Assembly (NCBI GenBank): GCA_947168815.1
Contig: CAMVNG010000002.1
Coordinates: forward strand, 186,001-250,000
Reading direction: 5' to 3'
Length of the DNA stretch: 64,000 nt
Source: an uncultured bacterium
Lineage (GTDB): Bacteria; Patescibacteriota; Gracilibacteria; Absconditabacterales; Absconditicoccaceae
The notes under the pieces are model-generated. The model made no database searches. It was not told where the DNA came from and saw only the letters and a program-made list of their open reading frames with translations. Shown one piece after another: positions 26,834-34,214 of this stretch (within the stretch, counting starts at the first letter, position 1; each line of letters begins with the position of its first letter). A program made the translations under genes and the position numbers.

Positions 26834-28339
26834 ATGAAAAAAAGAATTCTTGCTTGGATATTAGCATGATTTTTGGCGTTATTAAGTTTTTCAAATACTT
26901 ATGCTCTTGATAAAAATGCTTTAACATACTGAGATCTGCTTTCACTCTATTTTTGAGCATTAGCTCCAGATTGGAAATCAAATGCGAATCAAGCTTTGAA
27001 ATATACTAATGTAAAAACCTCAGATTCTTTGTATCCATTATTACAAAAAGCAGTTTCTAATAACAAGTTTCCTAATTTAGCTATTGCATTACCTTTGGAT
27101 AATACAGCATATGAATCCGATTTAGCTCTTCTAATCAAGAATAATTTTAACAAAGATATAGTATATACTGATAAGAAAGTTCTTACTTTTGATTTTCTAT
27201 TAAAAAATTTAAAGAATGTTTATAATATAAATACTCCTTCACAGACTACTAATACTCAAAAAACAGATTCTACTAAAGACAAATCAACATGAACTGTAAC
27301 CTCTGATGAAAAAGAAATTGCTGATCAAGTACTTTCATTACTAAAATATAACTACATCAATAAGAATGAATTAAAGTGAACATCATCAGTTGATTATAAT
27401 TCATTATGAGAGTTTGTTGAATGATTGGGTGAAACTTATACCGTTTATTATACTCCTGAAGAATGAAAGAAATTCATGGATAATCTTAACTGAGAATTCG
27501 CTTGAATAGGAGTATATCTAATACAAAGAGGTGATGAAAATCCAACTATACATGAAGTAATTAAAGATTCACCTGCAGAAAAAGCAGATCTTCGTGCTGA
27601 CGATGTTATTATCTCAATTGATTGAAAAAAACTTAATGAATTTGATAGTGCTGATGCATTTATCGATGCATTAAAATGACCTGAAGATACAATAGTTACA
27701 ATTCAAATCAAAAGAGGTTACCAGTATTTAACGAAACATATTACAAGAGATATTATACAAGTCCCTGTTATTGAATCCTCAAAGATATGATGAACTTGTT
27801 ATTTTAATATATATTCTTTTGATTTATGATTTAAGAGTAAATTCTTTAATGAATTTAATAAACTATCATGATGTGAGAAGTATGTTTTCGATATAAGAAG
27901 TAATCCTGGTGGTGTGATTGATGAAGTTACAGATATATTGGATAAATTTCTTCCTAAATGAAAGATAATTATGACAGAAAAATGAGTTAATGATGATGAA
28001 AAAATATATTCAGAAGAAGAACAAACTTACAATTTAAATAAACCAACATATGTTCTTATCGATAGTTATACTGCCAGTGCTGCTGAAATCTTTGCATGAG
28101 TATTAAAGCATTATAACCCAGATACAGTAAAATTAGTTGGTTCTCAAAGCTTTGGTAAATGATCTGTTCAGCAAGTGGTTCAATTTCCAAACGATGCAAT
28201 AATAAAATATACTATAGCTGTTTGGTATATTGCAGATAATGAAACATCTATTGATAAAATATGATTAACACCTGATATTAAAGTTGTTGATAATCCTTAC
28301 ACAGTAGAAGATGAGGTTCTGAAAAAAATATGATTATAA
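26834..28339 (+). CDS. ctpA: C-terminal processing peptidase (S41 family, PDZ)
   Basis: 501 residues. Signal peptide (MKKRILAWILAGFLALLSF, cut near YALDK), an N-terminal domain, a PDZ domain (~240-310; EFAGIGVYL, DSPAEKADLRADD) and the S41 protease core. Catalytic residues seen: Ser in SYTASAAEIFAG and Lys in GSQSFGKGSVQ, with DIRSNPGGVIDE between them. Acts outside the membrane and trims proteins or controls cell-wall hydrolases. Glycines in GVL and GKGS are UGA. The -10 box TATACT ends only 7 bases before AUG, so the mRNA may be leaderless. Strong terminator after the UAA. Confidence 0.95.
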
Positions 28340-28401: not shown

Positions 28402-29850
28402 TTAGAGAAGTCTTCCAGCCTTATCGGCTAAAGCACTTCTTTCACCCTTTGAGAGATGTACATGCACAAACTCAGGCTGTCCCTTCATGCGGTCAATCAG
28501 ATAAGAAAGTCCATTGGTCTTTTCGTTCTGATAAGGCGAATCGATTTGAGTCACGTCGCCAATGATCACAATCTTGGTTCCCTCACCGGCTCTGGTAACA
28601 AGTGTTTTCATACCTAGAGGGCTGAGATTCTGAGCCTCATCGATGATAATGAACTTCTTTGCTAATGAACGGCCTCGAATGTAGTTGAGTACCAACACCT
28701 CAATACCTTGGCTTTTAGCCCAATCTCTGATAGGTTCTTTCGGAATAGAGTCGTTCGACTTCTGATCAGAAGACTTTTGTTCTTTTCTTCTCTGATCATT
28801 TTGTTTCTGAGCTTCACGAAGAACATCAAGGTTGTCGTAGATTGGTGCCATATACGGATCAATCTTTTCATTCATATCACCAGGCAAGAATCCGAGGGTT
28901 TTGTCTTCAACTTCAATAGCAGGGCGAGAGACAAGGATCTCCTCATAGTCTTTTTTCTGCTTGAGTGCAGCGGCAAGAGCTACGAGAGTTTTACCTGTAC
29001 CAGCTTTACCAGTAAGTGCGACAAGTGAAATTGAAGGATCAAGCAACGCGTTAAGAGCAAAATACTGCTCATCGTTTCTTGGAGTCAACAAACAAGTCTT
29101 AAGTTTGCTTCGATCCAGAATAATGAGTCTTTTGCCTTTAGCTCGAGCAAGAATTCTCTCATCACAGCCTTCTGAATAGAGAACGAAAAGCTGGTTCTGC
29201 ATAGAGCCTTTCAGGGAGGTTGGAGTGGAATAGAGATTATCGTTTCTGTGTGAAGAGAATAGTGTATCCCAATCATCATCGTTCAACTCTACTTCCCTAA
29301 TTGCTTTGTAAATCTTATCCATATCCTGGACACTCTCATTGCGATAGCCTTCAGCTGCAACTCCAAATCTCATTGCTTTTACGCGTAAGTTGATGTCATT
29401 TGTAACAAGGACAACTTCAGCTTTACGACTTTGCTTGAGCTTATAGGCTATAGCCAGAATTCTATGATCAGGAATATCCATCATCAGTGATGTAGCAATC
29501 TTTGCAGGATACTCTCGACCAGGAAGACCAATACTCAAATTTCCAAGTCCCTTACCAAGTTTTGCACTTTTTGCAGTCTCGGTAGAAGTGATAACCTTCT
29601 CTAAAGAACGTGAAAATGCACGAGCATTCAAATTTGTTGTTTCAAATCCCTTCTTGAAGCGATCAAGCTCTTCGAGGACGGTGATTGGAATACATACATC
29701 GTGTTCCTTGAACCCGAATATGCAATTCGGATCCTGCAACGGGATGTTCGTATCCAACACGAACAACTTCTTCTGTGGCTTAACATCAGTCTTTCTTTTT
29801 GCAGAAGACTTGTTGGCGGCCTTTTTTACTTGATTTTGTTTTTTTACCAT
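28402..29850 (-). CDS. phoH: UGA-free cassette gene 3: PIN-PhoH family ATPase
   Basis: 482 residues without one in-frame UGA; glycine is always GGN and CGN arginine is common, unlike neighbours. Basic N-terminus, a PIN domain (LFVLDTNIPLQDPN; ITVLEELDRFK; VLVTNDINLRVKA, acidic nuclease residues present) at ~30-180, and a PhoH ATPase domain with Walker A TGKAGTGKT near residue 282 and Walker B FIIIDEAQN near 410, then GDVTQID. PIN-PhoH (PhoAT-like) proteins are ribonuclease-helicases. A consensus TTGACA/TAATACT promoter and a long A-rich leader with AACAAAAAAA lie upstream. Codon use suggests acquisition from a standard-code donor. Confidence 0.95.
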   Translation of the reverse strand: MVKKQNQVKKAANKSSAKRKTDVKPQKKLFVLDTNIPLQDPNCIFGFKEHDVCIPITVLEELDRFKKGFETTNLNARAFSRSLEKVITSTETAKSAKLGKGLGNLSIGLPGREYPAKIATSLMMDIPDHRILAIAYKLKQSRKAEVVLVTNDINLRVKAMRFGVAAEGYRNESVQDMDKIYKAIREVELNDDDWDTLFSSHRNDNLYSTPTSLKGSMQNQLFVLYSEGCDERILARAKGKRLIILDRSKLKTCLLTPRNDEQYFALNALLDPSISLVALTGKAGTGKTLVALAAALKQKKDYEEILVSRPAIEVEDKTLGFLPGDMNEKIDPYMAPIYDNLDVLREAQKQNDQRRKEQKSSDQKSNDSIPKEPIRDWAKSQGIEVLVLNYIRGRSLAKKFIIIDEAQNLSPLGMKTLVTRAGEGTKIVIIGDVTQIDSPYQNEKTNGLSYLIDRMKGQPEFVHVHLSKGERSALADKAGRLL

Positions 29851-31180: not shown

Positions 31181-32032
31181 TTATATAGATGCCTTAGTAT
31201 TCGTTGATTGTTCGATTAAAGAATTTAATTTTTTAACGAGGCGTTTTGGTGCAGGAATATAAGATAATTTAAGATTTTTATCCTGTTCTGTATTGAGATC
31301 TCAATCTGTATAGATTTTAATTGTTCAATATTCTAATAAAGCTCAAGTAAGTCCTTCTTTAATTGATTGAATAACTTTAATATCAGATGTTGAGATATTC
31401 ATGGCATCTGTCTTGAAAAATCACTTTTGATTGTATGAAGTGAAAGTTTTTGCAGTACAAATACCAAAATTCATTTCATATTCAATTAATTGGTACATAA
31501 CTCTATTTACTATAAACAAGAAAATAATATCAATTATTAACGCACCAACAGCAGCTGCAATACTTCAAAGTCATGTATTATTAATTACAATGAAAGGAAC
31601 TGTCGAATTAAATATAAGAACAAGGAGATGTACTGTAAAAGTTAGGAGTGTACGCTTTAAGAATTTTTCAAATGCTCTTTGTTTTACAGCAGCCATTTTT
31701 GAACTATCAATATATTTGGTTTTCGCTTGAATCTGTCAGATAATATTAGCCATAATTCAAAATACAGTATATGCACTTCGTGAAATAGTAGTATAAGCAT
31801 AAAAGATAGCTAAAATCCAGAACATCACTTTGTTTTCTTCAAAAATATGAATGTAGATTACATAAAGCATAAGATTAAGAAGAAAAATGGATAATACCAC
31901 CAAAAAAAGAGGAATTATTAATTTAATCCAATGTTTTTTAACAAGAATAACATTTCATTCTCAATATTTGTGAACAGCATCTAATAACTCTTCAGCATCT
32001 GTTTTTGTATCAAATGATGATAGGATTCTCAT
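31181..32032 (-). CDS. Membrane protein, paralogue 1 of a tandem pair
   Basis: 283 residues, four hydrophobic helices (two near residues 38-85, two near 150-190) with a short N-terminal soluble segment (SSFDTKTDAEELLDAVHKYG) and a C-terminal soluble domain (ISTSDIKVIQSIKEG ... IKIYTDGDL) that resembles bacterial PH-like domains. It is about half identical in pattern to the 32134-33003 gene, so it arose by tandem duplication. Function unknown. Confidence 0.82.
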
Positions 32033-32050
32033 AAAATAATTAATAATAAA

Positions 32051-32078
32051 CAAAAGCTATCAAATATGATAGCTTTCT
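32051..32078 (-). terminator. Terminator between the paralogues
   Basis: AAAGCTATCA pairs with TGATAGCTTT; the leftward transcript ends in TTTTG. Confidence 0.7.
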
Positions 32079-32133
32079 TCTTTGTAAAATCAATTGAACA
32101 TGTAATCGTTGATAAAAGTCAATATGATATATT

Positions 32134-33003
32134 TTACTGTGCACTTGCATAGTTTTCTTCATTTGTAGGGTTTTTCTCTTCAATGAGTGTATTTAATCTC
32201 TTTGCTAGAGTTGATGGATCTGGCATATATGTTAATTCAAGATTTTTACCTCATTGAACACTTAAATCTCAATCTGTGTAAATACATAAATTTCAATATT
32301 TAAACAGAGCACTTATAATTCACTCTTTAGTTGATTTTATGACTTTTATTGAGGCAGAATTTATTTTTAGGGAATCGCTCTTAAAAAATCATTTTTGTCT
32401 GTAGGTCGTTAGTCAATCAATTGTACAGATATTGAACGTCATTTCATATTCTATTAATAGGTACATAACCCTATTTAAGAGGAATAGAAAAACTAAGTCG
32501 ATAAAGAGAATTCAAATTGCCACCGCAGCGCTTCAAAGTCAGGTTGTTTTAATATATATAAAAGGGAAACTAGCATTGAATATGAGTACTATAGTATGTA
32601 TTCAGAAAGTAAGAAAAGTACGTTTCATAAATTTATCAAATCATTTTTTCTTAATATCTAAGATTTTCTCAGGATTTTCAATATACTGAGTTTTAGATTT
32701 TGTCCAATAATTAATCCTTATTATAATTGATATTACAACAAAGAGGCACCAAGAGATAGTAGTGTAAGAATAAAAAATAGCTAAAACCCAAAAAGTAATT
32801 TTATGTTCTTCAAAAGTATGGATATAAATAGAATATAACATCAACATTAGCATGAAAATTGATAGGAGGGTGAGTGCTAGTGGAAGCAATAATTTTATCC
32901 AGTGTCTTTTTATAAGTAGAACTTTTCATTCTCAATATTTGTTAAACGCTTCATTAAGTTCCTCAATATCTAATTTTGTGTCAAATGATTCTAGAATCTT
33001 CAT
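32134..33003 (-). CDS. Membrane protein, paralogue 2 of a tandem pair
   Basis: 289 residues with the same plan as its neighbour: ESFDTKLDIEELNEAFNKYG start, HWIKLLLPLALTLLSI first helix, paired helices in the middle, and a C-terminal domain ending in a helical NxLIEEKNP tail. Shared positions include the KYGEGxVxLxKxHWIK motif. Both are UGA-rich. A terminator separates them, so they are expressed independently. Confidence 0.82.
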
Positions 33004-33141
33004 TCCTAATTAGATTAGTAGCATAAAGTAATATATTTATATAAATACTCTATATTTTTATTGAATAAAAATTCAAATGATACTAATATAATTTATTATG
33101 TTATTATTCAGATAAAATTTATGAAAAAAATATTAAAAAAT

Positions 33142-33170
33142 TTGCATTTATTTTATTTTTGTTATATAAT
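33142..33170 (+). promoter_or_regulatory. Consensus promoter of the large noncoding transcript
   Basis: TTGCAT (33142-33147), 17-base spacer, TATAAT (33165-33170). Confidence 0.75.
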
Positions 33171-33176
33171 AGTAAT

Positions 33177-33872
33177 GTCATCAAGAAGTGATAAGTTCTT
33201 CTTGTTGAAACAAAAGAGATCTTTAACAAAGTTTATGTAATGAGAATTGTTCTCCCTTTGCTTTAATTATCTTTGCTGAATGTGAAAATCATTCTATACT
33301 ATTATTTAAGAATAATACTTAGTAATTAATTTCTTTACTTTATTATTTGAATAGAGTAGAGGAGCGATGATTAAGGTTGATAGTATTCTTGAGTGGCTTT
33401 CTAAGATTTAAGCCTCAGATAACTAGTTTAAATGATTAGTTATTATATGAATACTCGATTCCAATTATCTTCTATAATTCTTATTACTTTATATTTCGCT
33501 TTAAAGTTGTAATAAGCATGATAATAACCTATTATTGTTACCTTATTAACAATTATGGAATATCAAGTATTTATAGAGGCAATGTTTAGAAAATATGGTT
33601 TTTCAGGCAATTCGATTCTAGTGTTGTTGGTTATATTTCTTATATCATGTGGGAGAGGTTCCTAGTAATGATAGTATATCCAACTCTTTAGATTTCTTTA
33701 TCTAAAGATAAAATATATTAGAGTTTGTTATCTCATGGAAATCTTCTTCTTTAGGTCTGCCTAAAGCATGAGATACTTATCAAGTTAATAGCTTGATGAG
33801 CTTAGTAGGCATCTACATAAACTTGATTTCTTGAGGAAATTTGAGGTAGATCAATCTTCTATCTCTTTTTTT
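33177..33872 (+). ncRNA. Large (~700 nt) structured noncoding RNA candidate
   Basis: A single unit from the promoter at 33142-33170 to the terminator GAGGTAGA/TCTATCTC plus seven T at 33843-33872. Even with UGA as sense, the longest frames are 21-39 codons and show no leader signals. Local pairing is strong and nested: AAGAAG/CTTCTT at the 5' end; ATTAC/GTAAT; AACTCT/AGAGTT enclosing TTTAGA/TCTAAA near 33690-33725; TCTCATG/CATGAGA enclosing CTTTAGG/CCTAAAG near 33733-33775; ATCAAG/CTTGAT near 33780. I find no RNase P, tmRNA or rRNA core motifs. The size and ornate structure recall OLE, GOLLD or ROOL RNAs, without recognisable identity. Confidence 0.7.
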
Positions 33873-33881
33873 ATTTTTAAA

Positions 33882-33926: not shown

Positions 33927-34214
33927 TTAATAGGCATTAGCTAGCGAGGCAAGCTTAATCTCCATTGACTCATTTCCAAGACAGCAATTGCGCTGATCGA
34001 GAGTGATGAGCTCATAGTCGGGATACTCATCCTCAATGCGAATAATGGCGTTCTGAATGCCATTCTGCATTGACTCAATGAAACCACAGGCCTGGAGAAT
34101 GATCGAATCACCTTCAACTTTGCCCTTCTTTGTAACGCCTAGAACCTTTACCAGGCACTCTTCCTGTAGCTCTTTTGCTAATTCAGGAGAGAAAATAAAA
34201 TCACCTTGATCCAT
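33927..34214 (-). CDS. UGA-free cassette gene 5: 95-residue hypothetical protein
   Basis: MDQGDFIFSPELAKELQEEC start, a compact acidic protein with six cysteines or methionines and no membrane span; stop is UAA. AUG 34212-34214 is chosen because the class leader AACAAATACAAAC lies 15 bases upstream and a TTGCAA/TATAGA promoter (about 34263-34305) sits behind it; the frame stays open further upstream by chance. No family recognised. Confidence 0.75.
   Translation of the reverse strand: MDQGDFIFSPELAKELQEECLVKVLGVTKKGKVEGDSIILQACGFIESMQNGIQNAIIRIEDEYPDYELITLDQRNCCLGNESMEIKLASLANAY

Follow-up and report, generated by a model that had tools for sequence, protein, structure and literature searches.

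The 64,000-nucleotide stretch of DNA analysed here (the window) carries one copy of what is probably a new family of independently transcribed RNAs, ~700 nt long, with a closed fold and a structural role exerted in trans, whether by scaffolding a ribonucleoprotein or by assembling into an RNA multimer. The genome to which the window belongs (G000) is predicted to encode five such RNAs of one type (type A) and one of a second type (type B); the type A genes have a promoter, a terminator and a common fold, and contain no ORF. The distribution of the family is best read as restricted to this lineage. The features of the window copy are collected in Table 1.

Table 1. Predicted features of the type A RNA gene in the window
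Feature	Position	Strand	Remarks
Promoter	33120-33170	+	A-tract; -35-like TTTGCA, 33141-33146; 18-nt spacer; -10 TATAAT, 33165-33170
Type A RNA, ~698-nt noncoding transcript	33177-33874	+	Start inferred from promoter and alignment
5' hairpin	33177-33211	+	Helix 1
Closing helix, 5' strand	33214-33242	+	Helices 2 and 3; partner 33810-33832
Domain 1, large, multibranched	33244-33613	+	Helices 4-18; basis of model R1
Domain 2	33614-33725	+	Helices 19-22; hairpin of variable length, 33687-33706
Helix 19 (conserved)	33614-33624 with 33715-33725	+	Domain 2
Helix 20 (conserved)	33626-33635 with 33675-33684	+	Domain 2
Domain 3	33729-33775	+	TATCTCATG/CATGAGATA stem and CTTTAGG/CCTAAAG hairpin; helices 23 and 24
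Domain 4	33776-33800	+	Hairpin with GTTAATAGC loop region; helix 25
Closing helix, 3' strand	33810-33832	+	
Intrinsic terminator	33843-33872	+	8-bp stem, 33843-33865, and T-run; helix 27

A conserved unit from promoter to terminator

Identity among the type A copies climbs at ~33100-33120, lies at 0.5-0.9 across the transcript and drops after 33880. Mean pairwise identity is ~0.35-0.43 upstream and 0.69-0.74 over the promoter segment (33120-33170), and the conserved unit is therefore promoter, transcript and terminator together. Promoter-like sites are frequent by chance (9 found vs 7.7 expected in the scan); the one preceding the RNA was the top-scoring site (10/12), and its position and sequence are kept in every copy with a preserved 5' end. 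Promoters of the AAAATTTGCA..TATAAT type are general in these genomes and not peculiar to type A RNA, and no genes for stable RNA were found 3' of such promoters at the loci tested. The terminator is present in all copies, with helix 27 paired in 99% of alignment cells. The promoter and strong terminator of the original prediction are thus both conserved features, and its coordinates (33177-33872) were correct to within a few bases. A dyad resembling TAGTTCTTAACTA lies ~60-85 nt before the start of several copies (L032, L034 and L050) and may be a regulator site; it is not clear in the window copy.

In code 11 the longest ORF within the transcript encodes 36 aa; in code 25 it encodes 55 aa and lies on the wrong strand. 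No ORF is shared between type A copies in code 11 or 25, in keeping with the earlier statement that neither code gives a credible ORF. The TGA codons of an S41 protease gene (26840-28339) fall at conserved Gly positions of solved relatives, supporting a reading of TGA as glycine (code 25) in this genome, so that the absence of ORFs was tested in the right code. UGA=Gly coding puts this lineage with Absconditabacteria/Gracilibacteria. Two other genes in the window, both on the minus strand, have no in-frame TGA. One encodes 95 aa (33927-34214) and seems to have a higher G+C content than the DNA around it; homologs in G001 and G002 (47% identity) likewise lack TGA, and the 95-aa product had no Pfam, NCBIfam or PHROG match. 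The other, a PhoH/PIN-domain gene (28402-29850), has 37% GC in a UGA=Gly genome of 28% GC, possibly reflecting recent acquisition or strong codon selection.

Covariation supports the predicted fold

Folded on its own, the transcribed strand of the window copy had a z-score of -5.9 against dinucleotide shuffles. An alignment of 12 full-length type A homologs (A1) was the basis of an RNAalifold consensus, with energies of -242.6 kcal/mol for the transcribed and -166.7 for the reverse strand, against -68 +- 6 after column shuffles. The consensus comprises 223 pairs, formed in 92.3% of cells across the 12 sequences, and changes on both sides of a pair were seen in 104 pairs and 243 cells. Within-pair shuffles gave 51 pairs and 79 cells, with 0/500 reaching the observed values, and slid structures gave at most 41 pairs and 56 cells. 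Because related sequences can inflate covariation counts, columns were also simulated independently on the family tree with matched numbers of changes; this tree-aware null gave 74.5 +- 1.2% paired cells, with both-side changes in 39 +- 5 pairs and 54 +- 8 cells, where the real alignment had 92.3%, 104 pairs and 242 cells. Since one alignment served both to derive the 223-pair structure and to score it, the structure is favoured, but so wide a gap, together with double changes in most helices, is not sufficiently explained by this bias. Energies and covariation lie far beyond the nulls, bearing out the original prediction of a highly structured, putative transcript. Comparison of the homologs, in which covariation is very strong, shows a structured RNA under selection for its predicted fold.

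In overall architecture, a 5' hairpin is followed by a long covarying closing helix that joins the 5' to the 3' part and encloses domains 1-4, and then by the terminator. Helix 3 is paired in 93.5% of cells and has both-side changes in 4 pairs. Covarying helices in domain 1 are 5, 8, 9, 11, 12, 15, 17 and 18, and helix 25 of domain 4 has both-side changes in 7/10 pairs. Unpaired and hairpin-loop stretches are almost invariant among the copies, such as GCTGAATGTGCAAATCATTCTAT in domain 1 (33275-33297), in which the window copy has one change. The elements of domain 3 are common to type A and type B. The original prediction had proposed two nested stems, of which TCTCATG/CATGAGA around CTTTAGG/CCTAAAG was correct and corresponds to the covarying helices 23 and 24. 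In the other, TTTAGA/TCTAAA lies within the hairpin of variable length and the outer AACTCT/AGAGTT stem is not conserved, being replaced in the consensus by the conserved helices 19 and 20. No convincing covarying candidates for additional pseudoknots were found. Kissing via a conserved AGATCT palindrome was considered and rejected, the palindrome being broken in copy G2_C4 and so lending no weight to multimerisation.

Multiple copies in a narrow lineage

The multicopy nature of the RNA, absent from the original prediction, emerged from a DNA search of relatives, which returned full-length type A copies of 70-75% identity. G000 has five full-length copies, on C2 (the window), C11:1798, C1:64113, C1:23630 and C5:16430, and a conserved 23-base pattern matches exactly those five in this genome (0 matches for the reversed control). 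The second species of the genus (G002) has six, on C4, C20, C31, C67, C45 and C15. Those on C15 and C45 (L117 and L037) are nearly identical in the 5' part and more diverged in the 3' part, a pattern suggesting that these two paralogous RNA genes have recently undergone gene conversion or recombination with each other; contig C44 carries the 5' end of the same near-identical part. In the third species (G001, 77% complete), a full copy is accompanied by one 3' end at a contig edge. Outside the genus, G022 (another genus) has one shorter copy of 635 nt without most of domains 3-4, and in G039 (a third genus) a 3' end lies at the edge of a contig (51 bits). Beyond these, nothing convincing was found with R1, R2 (a covariance model built on the 3' domain) and a motif over 288 genomes of the class, or with R1 over 380 genomes of the phylum, in searches with strict filters that may miss more distant forms. 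Weak model matches at G209:C12 and G000:C2:43264 were judged false (only a terminator in common), as was one at G020:C7 (within a coding frame). The family is seen in metagenome-assembled genomes only, with some copies at contig ends.

A second, diverged type

The search with R2 also gave G002:C19:10656-11420 and G000:C5:39912-40658, one type B RNA per species. The two are ~73% identical to each other over the alignable part, and barely alignable with type A except in a few blocks. In kind of promoter, length, closing helix (GACTATAAA/TTTATAG), CTTTAGG-CCTAAGG double stem and terminator they nevertheless resemble type A. Profile matches from type B to type A were obtained for a 3' block with one RNA (E = 2e-6) and for a 5' block with the other (E = 7e-6), and these matches in separate blocks support homology of the two types. 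The type B consensus, from two sequences only, has 26 double and 29 single compatible changes and 0 broken pairs. A small gene lies 3' of type B on the same strand in both species; the two genes are homologous (37% identity), and type B has therefore been inherited in place. Located directly downstream (L118:1737-2099 and L120:1912-2340), this conserved gene encodes an apparent N-terminal hydrophobic segment and is a candidate functional partner of type B.

Genomic context

The type A copies are dispersed, mostly at different sites, and have no neighbour gene in common, which makes action in cis on a particular gene unlikely. The gene upstream of the window copy has an ortholog in G002, at a locus that holds no element. 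One orthologous copy, found in all three species (L033 on G000 C5, L040 on G001 C45 and L038 on G002 C67), has flanks exchanged between species: a downstream ABC transporter is common to G000 and G001, and the upstream neighbour to G001 and G002, as if the chromosomes had recombined at the RNA gene. Near the copies there is no tRNA, no inverted repeat at the element ends and, on inspection only, no apparent transposase or integrase among the neighbouring ORFs. Searches of viral contigs (exact patterns), phages and plasmids gave no match to the RNA, and five neighbouring window proteins had no match in protein libraries, including PHROG. A link to mobile elements, hinted at in the original prediction and typical of GOLLD and ROOL, is therefore absent as far as these searches extend.

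Among the surrounding genes are tandem paralogous membrane proteins of 283 and 289 aa (window 31181-33003, minus strand) without a Pfam match. Putative secreted proteins also form a very large family of paralogs, with tens of members per genome (L031:78-1682 and many loci in G001, G002 and G022); some of its genes adjoin RNA copies, probably by chance.

Possible roles of the RNA family

The features described above suggest a model in which a strong promoter would drive high-level synthesis of the RNAs, which would act in trans. Each would fold into one closed, multi-domain body that serves as a structural RNA, either a ribonucleoprotein scaffold or, by analogy with OLE, ROOL and GOLLD, an RNA multimer. 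The paralogs may supply dosage or slightly different versions of one particle, and the near-invariant unpaired segments may be contacts for protein, RNA or substrate. A more tentative extension of the model, possible and no stronger than that, is that the diverged paralogs and the second type are coexpressed and assemble homo- or heterotypically into RNA or RNA-protein particles in this UGA=Gly Patescibacterium.

The main rival to a structural RNA is a selfish noncoding element, a promoter-to-terminator unit that copies itself round the chromosome with the help of an enzyme acting in trans, and whose structure serves its spread. The dispersal of the copies, the empty G002 locus, the swapped flanks around one copy, the gene conversion between two others and the several contigs that terminate within copies would all fit such an element. 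Nevertheless, we regard it as rather unlikely, since all five type A copies of G000 are intact with no decayed fragments found, neither terminal inverted repeats nor an apparent transposase or integrase (inspection) accompany them, and copies old enough to be 70-75% identical have yet retained promoter, structure and terminator. In addition, type B has been inherited in place, and multicopy genes, rRNA operons among them, also show moderate recombination. Another reading is a regulatory RNA of large size that acts in trans through loops base-pairing with several mRNAs, with different targets for different paralogs. It would fit the variation of some hairpin loops between copies, and multicopy sRNAs whose loops have diverged occur in other bacteria. 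The size and closed multi-domain fold are, however, well beyond those of typical base-pairing sRNAs, and the most conserved parts are the structural cores, making a regulatory RNA improbable.

Similarity in size and closed architecture to GOLLD and ROOL, which are of phage/prophage origin (PMC12286853), would be accounted for by capture of a phage- or satellite-derived RNA by the chromosome. This is more improbable still in view of the negative viral-contig (exact pattern), phage, plasmid and Rfam searches, the lack of a nearby tRNA and the absence of PHROG matches for the five neighbouring window proteins. Size is the only feature in favour of a diverged housekeeping RNA or an unrecognised protein gene. 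RNase P RNA and tmRNA have separate loci, the 12 copies have no Rfam match at E<=0.5, no ORF is conserved in code 11 or 25, and the covariation is strand-specific; this reading is highly improbable and is refuted to the extent that sequence allows.

It is rare for a large structured RNA of unknown class to be found in bacteria, and OLE, ROOL and GOLLD have each opened a new structural field. The present family shows no sequence relationship to any family in Rfam and has five to seven copies in a genome of ~1.3 Mb, suggesting that reduced-genome Patescibacteria hold large RNAs missed by current annotation. With two diverged types, whose comparison gives a well-supported structure, probing, cryo-EM and expression tests are possible without a cultured host. 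If the reading of a particle-forming multigene family is true, it would be the first ornate RNA whose genes form a diversified, non-phage family on the chromosome.

Comparison with known large RNAs

The original prediction recognised no known class, and the Rfam 15 covariance models, including GOLLD, ROOL, OLE and raiA, gave no match to the 12 homologs at E<=0.5, matches at permissive thresholds being chance only. A candidate RNase P RNA (98.3 bits, just below the cut-off) lies at C1:121384-121714 and tmRNA at C7:5235-5612; neither of them, nor a tRNA-like domain, is present in the window. Of the two outcomes that the original prediction named as refuting it, a match to a known class and a lack of covariation in homologues, neither occurred, and its reading of a large structured noncoding transcript of no known class is supported. 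No description of such a family was found in the open-access literature, and no similar multicopy family in the libraries searched. The raiA motif RNA occurs in >2,500 species of other phyla, and type A has no Rfam match to it. That RNA (ModT) is conserved, structured and trans-acting (PMC11706538); type A is likewise conserved and structured, and is predicted to act in trans.

OLE, ROOL and GOLLD form RNA-only complexes (PMC12286853). GOLLD is encoded by phages or prophages, often near tRNA islands (PMC12286853), and like type A is a multi-domain RNA of >600 nt with an ornate secondary structure; type A differs in being chromosomal and multicopy, without a tRNA or phage link or a covariance-model match. 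ROOL, also phage or prophage encoded, is a stand-alone transcript with no known protein partner, and the one solved is 659 nt long (PMC12286853). Type A is of similar length and also predicted to be a stand-alone transcript, but does not match the ROOL model and forms a paralogous family of five to six copies. OLE comes from Gram-positive bacteria, often extremophiles (PMC11332333); both it and type A are large, chromosomal, highly structured and lineage-restricted, whereas type A has no match to the OLE model and no conserved neighbour genes. Type A has the hallmark of GOLLD, ROOL and OLE, a large RNA with a complex covarying fold, and is best read as comparable to them in kind, not homologous.
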